DNA from: an uncultured Clostridia bacterium
GTDB taxonomy: Bacteria > Bacillota_A > Clostridia > Christensenellales > Aristaeellaceae
Reading direction: 5' to 3'
NCBI GenBank assembly: GCA_946408865.1
Contig: CAMJTZ010000018.1
Span: 1 to 20,273 of the forward strand
DNA: 20,273 nucleotides
Shown here in pieces: positions 6,449-15,915 of the stretch (position 1 is its first letter; the number at the start of each line of letters is the position of its first letter). The notes below the pieces were generated by a model. That model searched no databases. It worked only from the letters and a program-made list of their open reading frames with translations, and was not told the DNA's origin. A program made the position numbers and the translations under genes.

Positions 6449-6832
6449 ATGACAATTACTTCCTTTAACCCCCTGATCGTTACGAAAGACGCCGAAGCTG
6501 TCATTGCCCTGTTTGAGGCACTTGGCTTTGAACGCCGCCATATGAAGACCGGGATCAACGGCCACATTACAAGCGTGCGCATGCGTTATGAAGGCGAAGA
6601 CGGAAAGGTTTTCCACGTGGACGTGACTTCCGCTCCCGTACCGCAGGACATCAGCACGATCCGCATGAACGTGCGCGATTTTGACGAAGCATGCAAAGCG
6701 CTGGAAGAAAAAGGTTTCGTGAACGCTCAGGGCGACAAGATTACCGAAACTCCTTCCTCAAAAGCGACAATGATGGTTTCCCCGAGCGGATTCTCGATCA
6801 GCGTGGCTGAACATATCCGCAAGAACGGCTGA
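6449..6832 (+). CDS. VOC-fold (glyoxalase/bleomycin-resistance-like) protein, copy 1
   Basis: A 127-aa protein with the paired beta-alpha-beta-beta-beta layout of the vicinal oxygen chelate fold. The first module is about residues 1-62 (ITSFNPLIV, then DAEAVIALFEALGFERRH). The second is about 66-122 (TIRMNVRDFDEACKALEEKGF, then MMVSPSGFSISVAEH). The usual metal ligands are not visible: the first strand has no His, and the Glu expected after the final SPSGF turn is replaced by Ser. It may therefore be a metal-free binding protein rather than an enzyme. AAGGAGA lies about 9 bp before the ATG. It is followed 15 bp later by a close paralogue of identical length, presumably in the same transcript. 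The substrate is unknown. Confidence 0.85.
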   Translation: MTITSFNPLIVTKDAEAVIALFEALGFERRHMKTGINGHITSVRMRYEGEDGKVFHVDVTSAPVPQDISTIRMNVRDFDEACKALEEKGFVNAQGDKITETPSSKATMMVSPSGFSISVAEHIRKNG

Positions 6833-6847
6833 GCTGAGGTGAAAAAC

Positions 6848-7231
6848 ATGCAGATCACAACCTTTAATCCGATGATTCTCTCAAAAAACGCGGATGAAAT
6901 CGTCAGGCTGTTTGAGGAAATGGGCTTCGAACGGAAGCACCAGGTTAACAATATCGACGGAAAGGATATTTCCAGCATCCGAATGACGGACGGGAACGGA
7001 TTCAATGTGGACGTTGCCCGCGTCGAATCCATGGAGCGCGATATGACAACGATGCGGATGAATGTGCGCGATTTTGACGAAGCGTACGAATTCCTGAAGT
7101 CCCGCGGATTCAAAAACGCGCGCGGGGAGGACCACACGGTCGAATCCAAATCCGCGCGTTCCTGCCTGATGATTTCCCCTTCCGGATTCTCCATCCAGCT
7201 TACACAGCACATCCGGAAAGAGGACCAGTAA
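6848..7231 (+). CDS. VOC-fold (glyoxalase/bleomycin-resistance-like) protein, copy 2
   Basis: A 127-aa paralogue of the preceding gene. Both share FNP near the N-terminus, GFER, the block MNVRDFDEA, SPSGFSI and HIRK. The start at this ATG makes the lengths equal and aligns MQITTFNPM with MTITSFNPL. The GTG three codons earlier overlaps the likely ribosome binding site (GAGGTG) and is rejected. As in copy 1, the last-strand metal ligand is missing (GFSIQLTQH has Gln where Glu is usual). VOC proteins often work as dimers, so the pair may form a heterodimer, but that is inference. The gene ends before a strong hairpin. Confidence 0.85.
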   Translation: MQITTFNPMILSKNADEIVRLFEEMGFERKHQVNNIDGKDISSIRMTDGNGFNVDVARVESMERDMTTMRMNVRDFDEAYEFLKSRGFKNARGEDHTVESKSARSCLMISPSGFSIQLTQHIRKEDQ

Positions 7232-7296: not shown

Positions 7297-8043
7297 TCAG
7301 CGGGTGAGGTCATACATCATGATTCCGGCCGCGACAGCGGCATTCAGGGACTCGGCGCCGCCGCGCATCGGCAGGCGGAGACGGTGGGTGGCTTCAGCTT
7401 TCACAGCGTCGGAGATCCCGTTACCCTCGTTGCCGATAACCAGAACGAAAGCATCCGACACATTTCCGCGCTCATAAAACGGATCGCCGTCGAGCTGGGA
7501 AGAAAGGACGGAGAAACCGCGCCCGCGAAGATCGCGCAGGCAGGAGGGCAGATCCGCCGGGAAGGCAAAGGACATCCGGAAGATACTGCCCATCGTGGAG
7601 CGAAGCACCTTCGGTGAGAACAGATCTGCACATTCCGCACTGAGGATCACGCCGTCCATTCCGGCGGCGTCCGCGGTACGGATGATCGTGCCGACATTGC
7701 CGGGATCCTGGACGGCGTCAAGCGCCAGGAGGCGGGACCCGGACAGGGGACGGACGCGGCGGGAAAGCACCGCGGCGACGCCCTGCGGCGTTTTGGTTTC
7801 GGTTACGGACGCAAAGGCATGGGCTGAAAGCACAAAGGCCGGAACATCCTCCGGCAGGGGGAAGGGAGGTTCAAAATCCTCCCGGAGGAGCACGGCCTGC
7901 AGGTCAAAATCCGACTGCAGCGCTTCGCGCACCATTCGGACGCCCTCCACGAGGAAGGCGTTCTGCGCGTCGCGGCCTTTGCGGTCCTGCAGGGAGCGCC
8001 AAGCCAGGACCCGCGGGTTTTTTACGGAGGAAATCAGTTCCAT
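7297..8043 (-). CDS. SpoU/TrmH-family RNA 2'-O-methyltransferase
   Basis: A 248-aa SPOUT-class enzyme. An N-terminal L30e-like RNA-binding domain (about 1-90; SSVKNPRVLAWRSL, FLVEGVRMVREAL) precedes the knotted SAM-binding domain with all three SpoU motifs: QDPGNVGTIIRTA (112-124, with the catalytic Arg), VIGNEGNGIS (202-211) and LPMRGGAESLNAAVA (224-238). These enzymes methylate a ribose 2'-OH in rRNA or tRNA using S-adenosylmethionine. This subgroup usually acts on 23S rRNA, but the target base cannot be deduced. AAGGAG lies 7 bp before the ATG. It starts 11 bp after the giant ASKHA gene ends, so it is the last gene of that operon. Closest named relatives are RlmB/TsnR-like proteins. Confidence 0.93.
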   Translation of the reverse strand: MELISSVKNPRVLAWRSLQDRKGRDAQNAFLVEGVRMVREALQSDFDLQAVLLREDFEPPFPLPEDVPAFVLSAHAFASVTETKTPQGVAAVLSRRVRPLSGSRLLALDAVQDPGNVGTIIRTADAAGMDGVILSAECADLFSPKVLRSTMGSIFRMSFAFPADLPSCLRDLRGRGFSVLSSQLDGDPFYERGNVSDAFVLVIGNEGNGISDAVKAEATHRLRLPMRGGAESLNAAVAAGIMMYDLTR

Positions 8044-8054
8044 GAGGACTCCTT

Positions 8055-11000
8055 TCAGGCAAGCAGGTCCAGAAGGTTACCGATCCAGGCGGAAAGGGAA
8101 TCATACGGTCGCGGCGTATCTGCCGGGGGGAAGGACTGATCCACAGAGGCGGCAATCACCGCGTCGCCCCGAGCGGAGAAGGGATGATAGGGATCGCTGG
8201 TAAAGAAACCCGGGAAGAGCAGTTCCGCGGAAGCCGGGAATTCGCGGCGGAAACGCAGCAGGAATTCCGGAAGGAGCTCCGCCGGACGGACGGCAATCGA
8301 GGCCGGAACGGACGGAGCGGGCGGAAGCATATGATACACTTCCTGCAGGAGAGAAAGACCGACCGGGATTTCCATCTTTTTCTCCGCAGAGAAAAGAAGG
8401 GAAAGGGAGGCCACTTTCCTGTTCCTGAACATGGAAAGGAAATGCCAGAGGGAGGTTTTTACCTGCGGCGGCAGCGATTCCAGGAGGGAAGCGCCGCGGC
8501 CGGAAATGCACAGGGACATCTGCTCCGGCAGGAAATCGTTCCGGCTTGGATCGGAAGCCAGCTGGAGCAGGACCAGGCCGGAAAGCATCATCAGATAAGC
8601 GAAATGCAGGATCAGCAGCGCCCCGGTACGGGAGGGCTGACCGGCGGACGCACGCTGCAGAGCACAGTTCATGAGCAAGGGCAGATGATCGGCCACAAAG
8701 AGATCGAGGGCGACGCGTGCGCGGCGGAAGGCGACCGGATCCGTCCGGGCGTCAGAAAGTGCGCGGACCAGCAGCGAAAGATCCCGGCGGAACGTCTCAT
8801 CCGGACAGAAACCAAAGTCGCTGACCAGCAGATCCGGCTCACGCAGGAGGGACGGCAGGAGCATATAATGCACGCCAAGGGGGATCTGGCAGGTGCGGAC
8901 AGCCTGCTCGCGGCCGCGCAGGAAGAGAGAAATATCCGCTGTGCAGGAACCGAGATCCAGCACCATGAAACCGCCGCGGGTATCATCCGCCGCACAGAGG
9001 CGGAAATAGGCGCCGAGCGCGGAACTTTCCGAAGCAAAGGTGACAGGAAGCCCTTCCGGCGGGCAGGGATAGCCGCTTTCCTCCAAGACGCTGCCGCACA
9101 GGGAAAGGAAGAGGTTCATCAGGGACTCGCGCCCTTCCTTCGCCATTTCGTCCGGGAGAGAGAAACGCCAGGAGAGCGCGGACGCGCCTTCAAAACGGGC
9201 CTGGAGGGCTGACATGAGCAGTACCTGATGGAGACAGACGAAGCCGGAACGGCCTTTTTCCTCTTCCCATTTCAGACTGGTATAAACCGCATCCGGCGGC
9301 GCGGAAAGCAGGTCATTCAGATCGGCGGGCATCAGGATAATCCCGTCCGCAAAGGGTACCGGCGCTGCGCCCGGCGCATTCCGGAAGAGACGGGAAACCG
9401 TCGGTAGCAGGGCGGACACCGGAACAGCCGGCAGGAATTCGCGGCGCAGCAGATCCCGGGAGGCGGACGGATTGATCAGAAGCGTACGGACCATGACCGG
9501 GCCGCTCATCGGACGGCGTGAACGCCCGGAAGCAAAAACGACCGAGGTTCCGGAGGAACCGAAATCCACGCATATTTCCACCGGATCGGCAGTGCAGATC
9601 AGCGGCTCGGGCAGGACATTCGGCAGGATTCCGACGGTTTTCACTGCCCCGGAATCCGGATCCGTCCGTGAGAAGGCGAAGCAGACCGGGAAGGAGGGCA
9701 GCACAGCGACACAGCGGCTGCCCGATATCGGCGGAACGGGACGGAAATCCTCCGTTTCCGTGCAGACAGAAACCGCAAACGGCTCCTGCAGGTGGGCGTA
9801 GGCGTAATAGGCGTGCCAGTCTCCGGCCCGGAACGGGACAGAGGGCCAGAGCGCGGCTGTCGGGATATCATGGGAATAAAGGAAGAGCGTTTCCTCCGCT
9901 GAATAAATGCGGACGAACTGAACGGGGAACACGCCGTCGAGCGTAAGCGTTACGCGGAAAGCCCCTTCCCCCGCGTGCTCAAAGCGAAGCAGATCCGGCT
10001 TCAGGAGCGTACGGCCTGCGGGCAGGGTGCAAAGCGCGCGACCGAAGGCGGGCGAAAGGGGCGGAAGGACAGCGTCAGACTGGAAGGACGCGGGATCAGC
10101 GTCGGAAGAAGCGTTTTCCCGCGGGAGAATCACGCACATGGCGGAAAAGAGGGAGTCTCCGATGATTTCCCGGCCGCGGGCAGGGAAAACAGCCAGCAGG
10201 TCCGCAAAGGGATCCAGCGCCGCCTCGGAGAGATCCTCTCCGAGGCTTTCCTGCAGAACGGTCAGCATGGAAGGAGACTTCGGATCCCAGGGCCAGGAGA
10301 AAACCGGCTCCCGACGGTCGACCGGCTCTGCGGATTCAGTGATAAGGGCGGAGAGCGCTTTCGCGTAATCCGGATCCGCAGAAGGATATTTTTCCTGCAG
10401 TTTCCGCAGGCCGGAAAGCAGCGCGTCGCGAAAATCATCGGAAGAGGCGGAAAGCGTTTCGCACTCCGCCTTCAGGCGGGCCAGCGTATAATCCTCACCG
10501 GCGGCGCGGGGACTGTCGAGCAGAAAACGGGAATTCTCCCGCGCGAAGGGCACTCCGCGGAAAAGATACAGAATCTCCTCCGGAATATCCGAACAGGAGG
10601 AGGCGCGGAAATCCACAATGCCGGTCAGGCAGGACGCCACAGGATCCTCCCCGAGGAAATGCTCATAGAAACAGGAAATTTTCGAAAGGCCGCCTTCATA
10701 CGCCGGAAGCGCGGACAGGCCGCAGACGGCGCGAAGCCGTGTTCTCCATTCCTCCGAGGGGGCCGCAGGCTCCAGGCTGCGGGAAAGATCCTGAAGGAAG
10801 GAACTAAGGAACCGGCGCAGCGGTGAGACCGGGGATTCCGGCAGGGAATCCAGGAAAGACGGGAGCAGCTCCAGGAGCAGACGGCGGTCGCCTTCGCCGA
10901 GGGAAGCACACGGATCCGAGAAGGTCAGTGAATCCGGATCGAACCAGACCGCGAAGGAAGGCACAAAATCCTTCTGCGCGGCGGTAAGCCGGGCCGGAAT

Positions 11001-13202
11001 AAACTGCTGTCCGGGAAGCACCAGGGCGAAGGGATAAGTTTTTTCTTCAGAAGAGAGGGAGAGAACGTACACCGCGTCTGCGCGACGGGTTTCCAGCCAA
11101 TAACGCAGCACGGGAGAAGAATCCGGACTCAGGCGGGAAACCGTAAGGGCAGCTTCACCCGAAAGGCGGCGACGGTACTGCCGCAGCAGGAGCATGGCCA
11201 GGAGACCGCGGCAAGCCGGCTCATCCTGCTCCGGAACGGAAACAGAAGGCAGGCGGGAAAGCAGATCCTCAATCCGCAGCAGGGGAGATTCCGCAAAGAG
11301 ATCTGGCAGAAGCGGAAGCTTCGGCATGACTCCGCGGGAAACGAAGCGGACTTCGGACAGATCCTGCGTGCAGACATCTGCTACCCGGGCCGCAAAGAAG
11401 GCGAGCGGATCGGCAGGGGCAGCGTCCCTGCAGGCCGCGGAAAGCGTTTTCAGACGGGCTTTGGGATCCGGTTCAGGCACATCCGGAAAGAGCGGGGGTA
11501 TCCGGGGCGGCGTATCCGTTTCCGCCGCCTGCAGCAGCTGCTCCAGCGCTTCGCAAGATTCGGCTGTCAGCGGAACGCCGGCATACAGGCCGGCATCCGC
11601 AGCACGCGCTGCGGCCGGAACAGAGATATCCAGCCGGACGGCGTCCGGCGTAAGCTCCTTTTCACAGCGGGAAACCGCGGCGGTAAGAAGACGGATGCGA
11701 CGCTCCCGTTTCAGGGCCGAGAACCGGTCCTCTCCCGCAGGCGGATCGGCCGCGCGACGGACCGTTTCCTCCAGCGCGGCACGGCAGCGGGAAAGACAGT
11801 CCAGCCGGACCTGCACGGAGCGGTAACCGCCGAGGGCGGAGAGAATTTCCGCACGGGCGTGCGCTTCAGACTCCAGCTGGGTCCGCATATCCTGCAGACG
11901 GCGGGCGAGCTGTTCCTCGTCCGTATCGGCAAGGGAAACCCGGTGCACGGGGCGCACGGCGTCCAGGCCGGACGCATGTGCTTCATCGGCAGAAGTATCC
12001 AGCTCGGAAGCAACCGTGATGTAGCGGCCGCAGGCGTTGACGGCGTTCTGCCAGAGAGAGGAAGTATCCGCTGAGAGACGCAGGGAGGCCGGAACGGCGC
12101 GCATCAGGGCCAGAATTTCGGAAACGGCCGCACGCAGCGCGGTTTCCAGCTGAGCGACCGCGGGAAGCAGATTCTCCCGCGCGGCGGAAAAGAGCTGGCG
12201 GAAAACCGCGTTTCTCGGATTGGCCGCAAGGCCGCGCAGGCGGGCCGGATGCGCAATCCAGGAGCGAAGGGCAGGAAGAAGATCCGACAGGAGCCAGACG
12301 GAAGAACGGAGAAAAACGGCGAAGGGGAACGCTTCCTCTCCCAGAGAGGAAACGGAAAGCGTACCGTCGATCTCCAGTGAGTGGACACCGGGAGTCAGCG
12401 GTTCCTTCTCCGAACAGAGCCGGCTGATGACGCGGGCAGCGGAAAGCGCGGTGAGGCGGAAAACGTCTTCCGTTTCCGCCATGGAGGAAGGCAGGGAAAC
12501 CAGCCACAGCGCATCCGCAAGGGAACGATCCTCCAGATCCTGCAGGGAAGCACGCAGGGCCGGGAAGAAGGAAGCCGGCAGGGGGGACGATGTCTCCGCC
12601 AGGGCAATCAGGGAAATAAAGACATGCCGGCCGGAGAAATGCTTTTTCATCCAGGACAGGAGCGAAAACATCACGCCGGCGGCGAACGGATCGCACAGGT
12701 CCGCAAGCAGCGTCAGGCGCAGGGGGGCCTGCTCCGTTCCGGCAGGAAGCGCACCAAGCCAGCCCATAAGAGGTCGGACAGACGGATCCTCCGGCCGGGA
12801 CAGGAGATCCGCGCAGCACCATTCGACCGCTTCCCGATCCGTCTGAAAGGAAAAAGGAAGCCCTTTGCCGCGCAGCGCAGCAATCAGCTGCGCCGTATCC
12901 GGATCCGCCCACAGATCCCGGACAGAACGGAAGGACAGCGCACATTCGCTGTAATCAAAAGAACACGGGAAAAGGGCGGAATTGTCTTCCGCCGAGAGCA
13001 GCGCATGGCACGCAGAAAAAGCGGAAGCAAGGGATTCCGCTTCAGACGGTTCCGCCGGATCCGGATCGCCGGCGCGGGCGGGAAGAACCGAAAAAATATT
13101 CAAAGACGGGACAGGAAAAGCGGCGCCGCAGGACAGCGCCGTAAATACCGTGGGAAGCATGCGGACGGCATAACGGCCGACAGCAAGAAGATATGAATTC
13201 AA
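8055..13202 (-). CDS. Giant ASKHA (Hsp70/actin-like) ATPase-domain protein with possible tubulin-like N-terminus
   Basis: A 1715-aa protein rich in Leu, Ser, Ala and Pro, with no signal peptide or clear membrane span, so probably cytoplasmic. Residues about 1208-1590 carry the ASKHA ATPase signatures in order: phosphate-1 ICVDFGSSGTSVVF (1210-1223), FASESSALGAY (1389-1399, resembling the DnaK connect region), phosphate-2 MVLDLGSCTADISLFL (1413-1428) and adenosine motif LCISGRGASLLESL (1564-1577). A beta-rich lead-in (about 1070-1200; ALWPSVPF, WHAYYAY) precedes it. Residues about 1-270 show a pattern (start YLLAVGRYAVRML, LTLLADLCDPFAAGVMFSLL, HVFISLIALAE, ALWLVSLPSSM) that recalls tubulin-like proteins of clostridia, but without an intact GGGTGSG loop. 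Residues 430-520 are helical, possibly coiled coil. A TTG start with GGGGAG 7 bp before it fits the N-terminus. Function unknown; the ASKHA fold is fairly sure, the tubulin part is not. Confidence 0.8.
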   Translation of the reverse strand: MNSYLLAVGRYAVRMLPTVFTALSCGAAFPVPSLNIFSVLPARAGDPDPAEPSEAESLASAFSACHALLSAEDNSALFPCSFDYSECALSFRSVRDLWADPDTAQLIAALRGKGLPFSFQTDREAVEWCCADLLSRPEDPSVRPLMGWLGALPAGTEQAPLRLTLLADLCDPFAAGVMFSLLSWMKKHFSGRHVFISLIALAETSSPLPASFFPALRASLQDLEDRSLADALWLVSLPSSMAETEDVFRLTALSAARVISRLCSEKEPLTPGVHSLEIDGTLSVSSLGEEAFPFAVFLRSSVWLLSDLLPALRSWIAHPARLRGLAANPRNAVFRQLFSAARENLLPAVAQLETALRAAVSEILALMRAVPASLRLSADTSSLWQNAVNACGRYITVASELDTSADEAHASGLDAVRPVHRVSLADTDEEQLARRLQDMRTQLESEAHARAEILSALGGYRSVQVRLDCLSRCRAALEETVRRAADPPAGEDRFSALKRERRIRLLTAAVSRCEKELTPDAVRLDISVPAAARAADAGLYAGVPLTAESCEALEQLLQAAETDTPPRIPPLFPDVPEPDPKARLKTLSAACRDAAPADPLAFFAARVADVCTQDLSEVRFVSRGVMPKLPLLPDLFAESPLLRIEDLLSRLPSVSVPEQDEPACRGLLAMLLLRQYRRRLSGEAALTVSRLSPDSSPVLRYWLETRRADAVYVLSLSSEEKTYPFALVLPGQQFIPARLTAAQKDFVPSFAVWFDPDSLTFSDPCASLGEGDRRLLLELLPSFLDSLPESPVSPLRRFLSSFLQDLSRSLEPAAPSEEWRTRLRAVCGLSALPAYEGGLSKISCFYEHFLGEDPVASCLTGIVDFRASSCSDIPEEILYLFRGVPFARENSRFLLDSPRAAGEDYTLARLKAECETLSASSDDFRDALLSGLRKLQEKYPSADPDYAKALSALITESAEPVDRREPVFSWPWDPKSPSMLTVLQESLGEDLSEAALDPFADLLAVFPARGREIIGDSLFSAMCVILPRENASSDADPASFQSDAVLPPLSPAFGRALCTLPAGRTLLKPDLLRFEHAGEGAFRVTLTLDGVFPVQFVRIYSAEETLFLYSHDIPTAALWPSVPFRAGDWHAYYAYAHLQEPFAVSVCTETEDFRPVPPISGSRCVAVLPSFPVCFAFSRTDPDSGAVKTVGILPNVLPEPLICTADPVEICVDFGSSGTSVVFASGRSRRPMSGPVMVRTLLINPSASRDLLRREFLPAVPVSALLPTVSRLFRNAPGAAPVPFADGIILMPADLNDLLSAPPDAVYTSLKWEEEKGRSGFVCLHQVLLMSALQARFEGASALSWRFSLPDEMAKEGRESLMNLFLSLCGSVLEESGYPCPPEGLPVTFASESSALGAYFRLCAADDTRGGFMVLDLGSCTADISLFLRGREQAVRTCQIPLGVHYMLLPSLLREPDLLVSDFGFCPDETFRRDLSLLVRALSDARTDPVAFRRARVALDLFVADHLPLLMNCALQRASAGQPSRTGALLILHFAYLMMLSGLVLLQLASDPSRNDFLPEQMSLCISGRGASLLESLPPQVKTSLWHFLSMFRNRKVASLSLLFSAEKKMEIPVGLSLLQEVYHMLPPAPSVPASIAVRPAELLPEFLLRFRREFPASAELLFPGFFTSDPYHPFSARGDAVIAASVDQSFPPADTPRPYDSLSAWIGNLLDLLA

Positions 13203-13209
13203 AGAATCA

Positions 13210-13215
13210 CTCCCC
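13210..13215 (-). promoter_or_regulatory. Ribosome binding site that sets the TTG start of the giant gene
   Basis: GGGGAG on the minus strand lies 7 bp before a TTG codon. The first in-frame ATG is 14 codons further in and would remove the first predicted strand, so TTG is preferred. Confidence 0.6.
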
Positions 13216-13241
13216 GGGAAAGGGAATTGACAGGCGGGTGA

Positions 13242-14147
13242 TTAAAGGGCGGGAGGATAGCTGCCGTTATCATGGAGCTTTTTGAGCTCGGCTGCGACAT
13301 ATTCCTTATCTTCCTTATAAGTAACACCGAACCAGACGGCATGCGTGGAAAGAACTTCCACCTGGAGGCCGGCAGTGTGCATCAGCGTATCGACCAGCGC
13401 GGGCAGGAGACATTCCTTTTTCAGAGGATCGCCGGACGGATCCTGAAGGAAATCATTCAGGTATTTGACGCCCGCCTCGAAGAAGGAGGGAGCGAAGCCC
13501 CACAGGTTCATGGAGACCAGCGCGTCGGGATCGAGGATGACGCCTTCGGGATCGTCATGAATGTCGCGGATCGTCCCGTCCGGGAAAGGAAGAATGCTGT
13601 ACGTTTCGGTAACTTTGACAAGATGACCGGCGGCGTCAGTCGAGCAGATGCCGCGGGTGACATGCCCGTTTTTCGAAACGGTATTTTTCAGATAATAGGC
13701 AACCATGGAGGCGCGGTTCGGCTCGGTGCGGAGTCGCTTCAGGGAAGCGGCCATGGCGGCGAAGGCGTCCTTGCCGTAATAATCGTCGGCATTGATGACG
13801 GCAAAGGGTTCACTGATCAGATCCTTTGCGCACATGACGGCGTGCACGGTACCGTAGGGCTTTACACGCTCGGCCGGGGGCACAAAACCGCCGGGCAGGG
13901 AATCATATTCCTGATAGGCGTAGTAAACTTTGACTTTTTTGGAAATTTTATCGCCGATGGCTTCGCGGAACATCTGATCCATGCTGCGGCGGATGACGAA
14001 AACGACCTTGTCAAACCCGGCTTCCAGCGCGTCGTGGATGGAATACTCCATCAGGATTTCACCGTTGGGACCGATGCGGTCCACCTGCTTGTTGCCGCCG
14101 TAACGGGAACCCAGGCCAGCTGCCATAATCAGAAGTGTGGTGTTCAT
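13242..14147 (-). CDS. Sugar-nucleotide-type nucleotidyltransferase
   Basis: A 301-aa enzyme of the NTP-transferase family (Rossmann-like GT-A fold). The nucleotide-binding loop is MAAGLGSRYGGNKQ (8-21), with PYGTVHAV at 97-104 and the metal-binding NADDYYG at 119-125. Such enzymes join a sugar 1-phosphate and an NTP to make an activated sugar plus pyrophosphate; the exact sugar and base are not deducible. The open frame extends 20 codons upstream, but the -10 box of the promoter lies inside that extension, and AGGAGAG precedes this ATG, so the shorter start is used. It is the first gene of the operon; the giant ASKHA gene begins 39 bp after its stop. No left-handed beta-helix acyltransferase domain follows, so this is the short, single-domain form. 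Confidence 0.88.
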   Translation of the reverse strand: MNTTLLIMAAGLGSRYGGNKQVDRIGPNGEILMEYSIHDALEAGFDKVVFVIRRSMDQMFREAIGDKISKKVKVYYAYQEYDSLPGGFVPPAERVKPYGTVHAVMCAKDLISEPFAVINADDYYGKDAFAAMAASLKRLRTEPNRASMVAYYLKNTVSKNGHVTRGICSTDAAGHLVKVTETYSILPFPDGTIRDIHDDPEGVILDPDALVSMNLWGFAPSFFEAGVKYLNDFLQDPSGDPLKKECLLPALVDTLMHTAGLQVEVLSTHAVWFGVTYKEDKEYVAAELKKLHDNGSYPPAL

Positions 14148-14191
14148 ACCTTGAACTCTCCTCTTTCCCTCATCATTATTAAACCGTAACA

Positions 14192-14220
14192 ATTTTACCA
14201 CGTTCAAAAGATCGAGTCAA
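14192..14220 (-). promoter_or_regulatory. Promoter of the nucleotidyltransferase-ASKHA-methyltransferase operon
   Basis: On the minus strand TTGACT, a 17-bp spacer and TAAAAT. It lies about 45 bp before the nucleotidyltransferase ATG and is the only good promoter seen upstream of the three-gene minus-strand run. Confidence 0.75.
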
Positions 14221-14285: not shown

Positions 14286-14361
14286 TTATTATTAAGTTGC
14301 TTCTCTTAAATGAGGGGGGGGCTTCTTCAGGCGCGCCGGAAACGGCGGAAAGGGAATGTGC

Positions 14362-15915
14362 ATGAACCAGAACGGATACCATCCCAGCGGGATGCAGGAA
14401 TATGGCCGGCAGCAGGGCGGATATGCCCCGTACGGGACGACGCCTACCGGCCAGCAGAACGGGGGAGCGAATATGGCGCCTCCGGCCGCACCGATGAGCG
14501 GCGGGCCGATGGGCGGCACGCCGGCCGGAAATCCGTATGCGATGCCGCCGGCAGGCTATACCGCACCCGGCAGTTACACGATGCCGCCCCAGCAGGGGAA
14601 CGGCGGAAGCTTTATTCCGCAAACGCCGTACAGCCCGGGCTATACGAGCCCCGGATATCAGCCGCCGGCGGGCAACGGATATCCGCCCCAGCAGCAGGGC
14701 TATCTGCCGCAGGGATACCCGCAGGCCCAGCCCGGATACCCGCAGGGGCAGCCCGGCTATCCGCAGGCCCCGATGGCCGGATACCAGGCACCGCAGGGCG
14801 GCACCTATACCGGCGGATACAGTCCCTATGCCCAGATGGGCCGCGCACCGCAGGCGCCCGGGCAGCCCATGCAGGGCGAGTACAGCCCGAACAATCCGAT
14901 TCCGCTCAACGGAGGCGGTTATATTCCGCCGAAGGTACCGGTTCGGAAGCATGGATTTGAATTCAGGGAATGGCATCTGCTGGCGCTCAGCGGCATCCTG
15001 ATTGCGCTTTTCATCCTGGCCGTGCTGATCCTCAGAAGCCCGGCCCTGAAAATCATTCTGATGATTGCTGCGGCCGGCAGCGCCGGATTCCTTTGGATCA
15101 AACCGCTGGTAGCGGAAAACAGGCGGCTGACCTATACGATTGTCGCGCTGGCACTGTGCGTGCTGACCGCGGTGAGTTTTCTGATCAAAGCTCCGCAGGA
15201 CAATACGAAAAACAAGAACCAGAGCCAGCAGCCTGCTTCCGCCGCAAACACGCAGGCCCCCGTCCAGGGCGGCGTGCCTGAAATACCGGCGGCAGACCCC
15301 CTGAAAGAAGAAAACACGGAACCGGCCGTTGCCGACAACACACTGATGGAACGGCTGATCTACTTCTTCAAGCTCTGGAGTGAAAACCGGCAGGATGAAA
15401 TGCTGACCCTGTGCGCACCGAGCTGGACAGGGAAGCAGGAAAACCCGCGGACAAGCCTTTTCAACACGCTGGCAAACCGCTTTCCGGTCAATTTCAGGGC
15501 GGAAAGCATCACCGGGACCGACGCGGATTCAAGCCGCCAGGTGACGGTGACGACGGAGATTGACCGCAGGAACAACAAACCGCGGGTCAAATACCGGATG
15601 ACGGTGCTGATGGTGAAAGAAAACGGCGAATGGTACGTCGATCCCAAGAGCCTGCAGACCAACGATATCGAGGAAACACCCGATCCGAACATCACGCCCA
15701 CGCCGGCGCCCACGCCGACCGCGGCCGTATATGACAACACGGTGCTGTATTACAATCCGAAGGGCGGAAAGTACTATCACGCCGTACCGGACTGCAAGAA
15801 TGTCGGCGCGAAATACCTTCCACTGGCCGGCACCTTCTACTACAGCCAGCTGAACGACGCGGATTTCAAGGATCTGCAGCCCTGCAACGTATGTGGCGCT
15901 CCGCTGCGGCCATGA
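14362..15915 (+). CDS. Membrane protein with Pro/Gln/Gly/Tyr-rich head and Cys-containing tail
   Basis: A 517-aa protein. Residues 1-190 are low-complexity and rich in Gly, Pro, Gln and Tyr, including GYPQAQP-type heptads at about 118-138. Three hydrophobic helices follow (about 205-225, 228-247, 257-275). After a polar linker, residues about 326-432 resemble a small NTF2-like or DUF4878-type domain (MERLIYFFKLWSENRQDEML, then MVKENGEWYVDP). After a Thr/Pro linker comes a C-terminal domain with YYNPKGGKYYHAVPDCKNVG and LQPCNVCGAP, a His/Cys set that could bind zinc. The three helices put the head and the tail on opposite sides of the membrane. The ATG at 14362 was chosen over the one at 14356, because GAAAGGGA is 6 bp before the former and touches the latter. 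The stop overlaps the tilS start (ATGA). Role unknown. Confidence 0.82.
   Translation: MNQNGYHPSGMQEYGRQQGGYAPYGTTPTGQQNGGANMAPPAAPMSGGPMGGTPAGNPYAMPPAGYTAPGSYTMPPQQGNGGSFIPQTPYSPGYTSPGYQPPAGNGYPPQQQGYLPQGYPQAQPGYPQGQPGYPQAPMAGYQAPQGGTYTGGYSPYAQMGRAPQAPGQPMQGEYSPNNPIPLNGGGYIPPKVPVRKHGFEFREWHLLALSGILIALFILAVLILRSPALKIILMIAAAGSAGFLWIKPLVAENRRLTYTIVALALCVLTAVSFLIKAPQDNTKNKNQSQQPASAANTQAPVQGGVPEIPAADPLKEENTEPAVADNTLMERLIYFFKLWSENRQDEMLTLCAPSWTGKQENPRTSLFNTLANRFPVNFRAESITGTDADSSRQVTVTTEIDRRNNKPRVKYRMTVLMVKENGEWYVDPKSLQTNDIEETPDPNITPTPAPTPTAAVYDNTVLYYNPKGGKYYHAVPDCKNVGAKYLPLAGTFYYSQLNDADFKDLQPCNVCGAPLRP
14713..14775 (+). repeat. Three 21-bp in-frame tandem repeats
   Basis: Three consecutive 21-bp units starting GGATACCCGCAG or GGCTATCCGCAG encode GYPQAQP, GYPQGQP and GYPQAPM in the head of the membrane protein. 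The first two differ only at two positions. Copy number could vary by slippage without breaking the frame. Confidence 0.7.

Follow-up and report, generated by a model that had tools for sequence, protein, structure and literature searches.

A giant protein of uncultured Clostridia that appears to join a tubulin-like half without GTP loops to an ASKHA ATPase

Introduction

Proteins of the tubulin fold and of the actin fold ordinarily exist as distinct polypeptides. The question raised by the locus described here is whether one bacterial chain can hold relatives of both, and how such a chain might have arisen. The window (the whole stretch of DNA that was analysed, 20,273 nucleotides of contig CAMJTZ010000018.1 from an uncultured Clostridia bacterium) carries an uninterrupted frame of 1715 codons at 8055–13202 on the minus strand, in which a tubulin-like half and a half of the ASKHA (actin/Hsp70-type) ATPase kind stand together. 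Its product is referred to below as the giant. A preliminary description, made from the sequence alone, had proposed that a single chain contains relatives of both cytoskeletal folds; the frame is indeed continuous, and structural models place both folds in it. In a group of bacteria from gut and rumen, the giant seems to have arisen by the merging of two adjacent genes, one coding for a relative of tubulin and the other for an ATPase of the actin/Hsp70 type.

The related genomes show three states: a pair of genes whose GTP loops look intact, a pair in which the loops are damaged, and a single fused gene that lacks them. The structural claim made earlier gains an evolutionary explanation, in which the giant would be a fusion of genes that lie side by side in relatives. 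The giant raises two questions: for what purpose a GTP-free tubulin fold is retained, and whether an ATPase of the actin fold could serve as its switch. The analysis also brings out an arrangement of four genes, coding for lipoprotein-like, membrane, tubulin-like and ASKHA proteins.

Results

Predicted Folds of the Two Halves

The predicted structure of the N-terminal part of the giant was a tubulin fold in both Foldseek and VIA-align, in agreement with the proposal that residues 1–270 are tubulin-like. The best 50 rows in VIA-align were tubulin-superfamily entries, and the Foldseek matches listed were, by title, tubulins or tubulin-containing assemblies. The segments on which the proposal was built were located in the translation: YLLAVGRYAVRML is residues 4–16, LTLLADLCDPFAAGVMFSLL is residues 163–182, and HVFISLIALAE and ALWLVSLPSSM are both present.

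The model of residues 1205–1628 had the ASKHA fold, with the duplicated RNase H-like domains of the actin/Hsp70 type (Foldseek, VIA-align), as expected from the preliminary description. MreB, BeeR and other bacterial actins were the best structural matches; FtsA chains were among the best and DnaK was also among the matches, with VIA-align differences under 1 Z treated as ties. The motifs phosphate 1, phosphate 2 and adenosine, already recognized in the sequence, followed each other in the order of an Hsp70/actin ATPase, and phosphate 2 deviated at the second and third glycine. About 87 residues, predicted to be mostly helical, follow the domain. The stretch of highest hydropathy (around residue 1528) was dismissed as a membrane anchor because it falls inside the ASKHA domain, where a helix is predicted. 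The computation thus supports the presence of both the tubulin and the ASKHA fold in the giant at the level of predicted models.

Database searches with sequence profiles found neither fold in the giant. The window protein had no match in Pfam or NCBIfam, and Pfam searches with 28 members gave ten scattered single-member matches, none of them to tubulin or ASKHA families and nothing consistent. Of the families that had been put forward for comparison, neither SrfB (PF07520) nor HSP70 was matched in Pfam by the window protein or the 28 members, with E values of up to 1 considered. A sequence search of the PDB with the giant returned weak scattered stretches and no tubulin; its best match, an actin-like protein (E 0.11), covered residues of the tubulin-like half and was judged to be chance.

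Separate Tubulin-Like and ASKHA Genes in Related Clostridia

With a profile built from 28 giants, matches were found in 10 of 297 genomes from the order around G001. Six of these had full-length giants. The other four (G243, G153, G232, and G184) matched the C-terminal part alone, in frames of 1092–1419 codons, and in all four a tubulin-like gene lay directly upstream of this ASKHA gene. The tubulin-like protein of locus L029 had the loop GSLCGGTGSAG and resembled Tubulin_2 (E 4.4e-6, 26.6 bits, cut-off 27) and Tubulin (E 4.4e-5, 24.3 bits, cut-off 33); that of L032 was weaker (0.0032 and 0.0063, respectively). Aligned by hhalign with six canonical members of the Tubulin_2 family from other Clostridia, the separate tubulin-like proteins matched across loops T1 to T4 (probability 93.3, E 2.7e-7). 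The separate partners of related Clostridia are read as an ASKHA ATPase of ~1030–1250 residues and a tubulin/FtsZ-like protein that is a distant relative of Tubulin_2 (FtsZl1).

Both parts of the giant matched these proteins. Residues 1–615 aligned with the four separate tubulin-like proteins (hhalign probability 98.8, E 8.4e-17), and residues 632 to ~1684 (profile columns 652–1698) aligned with the four downstream ASKHA proteins (probability 100, E 3.9e-87). When 11 tubulin-like proteins were used, residues 1–461 were covered (E 7.2e-17). When alignments of 43 giants (first 660 residues) and of 12 separate proteins were built separately, their comparison gave a probability of 99.2 and an E of 1.7e-19, against 0.6 and 0.093 for the best of 30 column-shuffled controls and 0.1 and 0.57 for the reversed control. 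BLASTP of the tubulin-like protein of L067 against the window protein gave E 3e-9 over residues 282–486. These comparisons indicate that each half of the giant is homologous to its own separate gene.

A profile of the four separate ASKHA proteins matched 21 of 396 genomes of the order. By frame length, eight of these hold giants and 12 hold separate genes, G757 and G016 being weak matches; the remaining match was in G163. Across the class it matched four of 391 genomes (G001, G384, G566, and doubtfully G469). The matches in G163 (a 439-codon frame with a stop) and G469 (a 301-codon frame) were judged unrelated and outside the family.

Fourteen loci with separate genes were read. In eight of them (L030–L032 and L062–L066) the order on one strand was lipoprotein-like, membrane, tubulin-like and ASKHA gene, with the labels lipoprotein and membrane given by eye from the sequence. 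L061 and L068 had the lipoprotein-like, tubulin-like and ASKHA genes; L029 and L067 were without lipoprotein-like and membrane genes, and L069 was a short contig. At L060, a tubulin-like stretch apparently broken into pieces (12804–13696, minus strand) was observed beside an intact ASKHA frame. A mostly shallow search of the open-licence literature found no description of the four-gene arrangement. The lipoprotein had D-x-T-x-S-M-like stretches in some members; it is not called a vWA protein, because neither the Pfam vWA families nor the canonical vWA partners (hhalign) matched it. Its profile matched G232, G184 and weakly G016 and found nothing in G243 and G703, genomes whose completeness was not reported.

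Absence of the GTP Loops

The preliminary description had noted that the Gly-rich GTP loop was absent from its expected place, and alignment with the separate relatives confirmed this: residues D171–A174 of the giant align with GGTG, at the place of T4. Among the 12 separate tubulin-like proteins, T4 was GGTG in 11 (DGWG in L067), and T1 was GG[TS]G in ten (GGCG in L029, GIPG in L067). No GG[TSC]G occurred within the first 60 residues of any of 124 giant entries, among which N-terminally truncated ones cannot show T1. Within the first 260 residues, GG[TS]G was found in one entry (P0062), at residue 230 and outside the loop. At the T4 place the giants instead kept D171 (114/124) and F173 (106/124). 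Sequence comparison thus indicates that the giants have lost loops T1 and T4, and we infer that the tubulin-like half no longer binds GTP. A one-way decay series of the loops was rejected: L029, with T4 intact, and L067, with T4 damaged, are sisters, so the loss in L067 looks independent of that in the giants.

Family, Conservation and Selection

Two rounds of protein searches gave 128 and 127 matches, with at least 123 distinct proteins (P0002–P0124). Among the matches listed, one was identical to the query and the others were 43–86% identical, mostly over the full length. A contig search gave 17 giant loci, assigned to uncultured Clostridia, Clostridiales and once Lachnospiraceae, many from ruminant samples. 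Each of 12 genomes had one match. An assembly error as the source of the fused frame was rejected because this frame was found again in other listed relatives. One pattern match and no relative were found among viral contigs.

Conservation was counted over 124 aligned entries, which include both the window protein and its identical database entry as well as some truncated ones. In the ASKHA part, all 124 have D1213, 123 have D1416 (with a gap in the remaining one), 123 have D1423 and 118 have K1311; position 1392 was E or D in 122, and R1569 and G1570 were invariant. Phosphate loop 2 had A or S at 1419 in 123 entries and C at 1420 in 106. The motifs are therefore more than chance. In a single pairwise comparison of the window with L001 (86% identical), the ratio of nonsynonymous to synonymous substitution rates (dN/dS) was 0.117 overall, 0.197 for residues 1–270 and 0.049 for residues 1205–1630. 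The giant, its loop-less tubulin-like half included, is kept under purifying selection by this computation.

Chromosomal Position and Probable Fusion

In the window, a nucleotidyltransferase-family gene, a 39-base gap, the giant, an 11-base gap and a SpoU-type methyltransferase gene follow each other on one strand. SpoU followed the giant in all 17 loci and the nucleotidyltransferase preceded it in 15. A gene that we take to code for a sugar transferase stood before the nucleotidyltransferase in 11, and a presumably GalE-like gene lay between in eight; the window has neither. In L013 and L015 the nucleotidyltransferase is missing upstream of the giant, and in its place the opposite strand carries a repetitive frame of very large size that resembles a surface protein.

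Two separate pairs occupy the giant's own chromosomal slot. In L029 the sugar transferase, nucleotidyltransferase and GalE genes precede the pair, and SpoU follows with at least one other frame between; in L067 GalE precedes it, with the contig ending within GalE, and SpoU follows. In a FastTree phylogeny computed from 1082 columns of the ASKHA part and covering 14 separate proteins and 43 giants, the giants formed a single clade (support 0.88) whose sister was L029 plus L067 (1.0). In five of 12 separate pairs (L029, L030, L031, L062, and L066) the second frame starts 4 bases before the end of the first, and the L067 pair has the same overlap if GTG is its start. A small frame change may have joined the tubulin-like and ASKHA genes.

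Discussion

Proposed Working and Alternatives

The explanation that we favour, and consider probable, is that the giant is a natural fusion of two proteins of adjacent genes, with a GTP-less tubulin-like platform and an ASKHA ATP switch that perhaps serve an envelope process. The tubulin-like half would be a fixed assembly or docking platform, and the ASKHA half would act on it as a switch powered by ATP, bringing about its assembly or its release; the giant may act as a scaffold. In the partnership of FtsZ and FtsA, a protein of the tubulin fold works together with one of the actin fold, and the giant could be a fused counterpart of this partnership that does without GTP. The weak step would be that it organises an envelope or surface-polysaccharide process, which is proposed because lipoprotein-like and membrane genes come before eight of the separate pairs and because nucleotide-sugar and sugar-transferase-like genes adjoin many giants. 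Cell division is probably not its job, because a separate strong tubulin/FtsZ-family gene, presumably FtsZ, was found in all six genomes considered (G001, G005, G190, and G295 with giants; G243 and G703 with pairs).

Several results weigh against this explanation. Just two Foldseek matches of the N-terminal model reached E 0.001, the giants had no hhalign match to the six canonical Tubulin_2 (FtsZl1) proteins, and a hidden Markov model (HMM) of the four separate tubulin-like proteins, run with a threshold of E 0.001, did not pick out any of the 18 giant genomes. Since the Pfam HMMs and the canonical proteins gave no match, the giant's sequence link to tubulins runs via the separate relatives. 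Phosphate loop 2 reads G-A/S-C and most relatives have G-G-G or G-G-S, so that ATP hydrolysis is not certain. The envelope role is weakened because the lipoprotein profile found nothing in any of the 18 giant genomes (completeness not reported), and the gene context is weak evidence because FtsH, HPRT, TilS, and SpoU are housekeeping neighbours.

That residues 1–270 are another Rossmann-like domain merely resembling tubulin would accord with these failed matches to Pfam tubulin families and FtsZl1 proteins; it is very hard to reconcile with the tubulin-superfamily or tubulin-containing matches listed by both fold searches and with separate homologues that carry GGTG loops, resemble Tubulin_2 and match canonical FtsZl1 proteins, and we give it almost no credence. 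The two halves could also have lost nucleotide turnover altogether and form a static structural platform, as the missing GTP loops and the altered phosphate loop 2 might suggest. However, no other large region is as constrained as the ASKHA part (dN/dS as above), and 118–124 of 124 entries keep D1213, D1416, K1311, E/D1392 and the adenosine motif, which makes such a platform improbable.

An Hsp70-like chaperone, with the degenerate tubulin-like half as client-binding or partner domain, would fit the DnaK chains among the structural matches. Hsp70 proteins have a C-terminal substrate-binding part after the ATPase domain, and the short helical tail of the giant leaves no room for one of usual size; MreB and FtsA score equal to or higher than DnaK, and HSP70 is missing from the Pfam results. 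A chaperone is accordingly unlikely in our judgement. A bolder extension of the fusion would be a single polypeptide that builds filaments or sheets, with a nucleotide-free tubulin-fold lattice driven by the fused actin-fold ATPase and derived from an undescribed tubulin/ASKHA/lipoprotein membrane system; we regard this as speculative, with a small chance of being right.

Comparison with Known Systems

The partners of FtsZl1 (Tubulin_2, PF13809) in FtsZl1/vWA systems, in the part of the source used here, are vWA proteins, kinases, GTPases and OmpA proteins, and that part names no actin or Hsp70 partner (PMC2875224; Makarova and Koonin, 2010). Tubulin_2 proteins are sparse and divergent according to the part of PMC9871819 used. 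In the class, 10 of 291 genomes matched Tubulin_2, eight above the cut-off. No frame with ASKHA motifs was present at eight Clostridia Tubulin_2 loci (L081–L088); the only ASKHA-profile match there, a 329-codon frame in L084 (E 0.0017), was judged to be chance. Five of these loci are informative, since L087 and L088 are contigs of ~6 kb and the match in L086 is short and may be FtsZ itself. Within these bounds, and those of the source, the tubulin/ASKHA pair differs from FtsZl1/vWA operons. Like FtsZl1 as there described, the giant has an N-terminal tubulin-like domain followed by long helices; unlike it, the giant lacks GTP loops and is fused to an ASKHA ATPase.

The giant resembles FtsZ/FtsA in combining a tubulin and an actin fold, and FtsA is close among the structural matches, but it is one chain with a loop-less tubulin half and coexists with an ordinary FtsZ-family gene. 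It shares the ASKHA fold with MreB, BeeR and other bacterial actins, whereas its own domain is the C-terminal quarter of 1715 residues and has large helical insertions. With DnaK it shares the order of motifs and not the substrate-binding part or a Pfam match.

Map of the Window and Minor Observations

The features are collected in Table 1. The start codon of the giant is TTG, with GGGGAG 7 bases upstream.

Table 1. Positions of the parts of the giant and of its flanking genes in the window.
Feature	Position	Strand	Basis
Residues 1–270, tubulin-like nucleotide-domain region without GTP loops	12393..13202	-	Model, fold search, profile comparison
Residues 9–12 (GRYA), place of tubulin loop T1	13167..13178	-	Alignment with separate relatives
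Residues 171–174 (DPFA), place of tubulin loop T4	12681..12692	-	Alignment; conservation in 124 entries
Residues 271–620, mostly long helices, still within the share of the separate tubulin-like gene (aligned to residue 615)	11343..12392	-	hhalign, model
Residues 616–632, putative fusion junction region between both hhalign matches	11307..11357	-	hhalign
Residues 632–959, mixed alpha/beta region from the ASKHA gene	10326..11309	-	hhalign, model
Residues 960–1204, beta-rich region	9591..10325	-	Model
Residues 1205–1628, predicted ASKHA ATPase domain	8319..9590	-	Model, fold searches
Phosphate loop 1 DFGSSGTSVVF, residues 1213–1223	9534..9566	-	Sequence, conservation
Phosphate loop 2 LDLGSCTADIS, residues 1415–1425	8928..8960	-	Sequence, conservation
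Adenosine motif SGRGASLL, residues 1567–1574	8481..8504	-	Sequence, conservation
SpoU-type methyltransferase gene, following the giant in 17/17 loci	7297..8043	-	Pfam, synteny
Nucleotidyltransferase-family gene, upstream of the giant in 15/17 loci	13242..14207	-	Pfam, synteny

Residues 418–430 of the giant (11913–11951, minus strand) form a loop, PVHRVSLADTDEE, in which P418, V419, H420, R421, D426, T427, E429, and E430 are invariant in 43 giants. Model confidence was low there (block means 70 and 65). The tubulin-like protein of L067 has a related VHR stretch, and the loop is possibly a binding motif.

On the plus strand, a frame at 14356–15915 encodes a 519-codon Pro/Gly-rich protein with a hydrophobic middle, for which a Pfam search gave no significant match; it adjoins TilS in 14 of 17 related loci. 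Two small paralogous genes, which we take to be VOC-like, lie in tandem at 6449–7231 on the same strand, and L001 has three.
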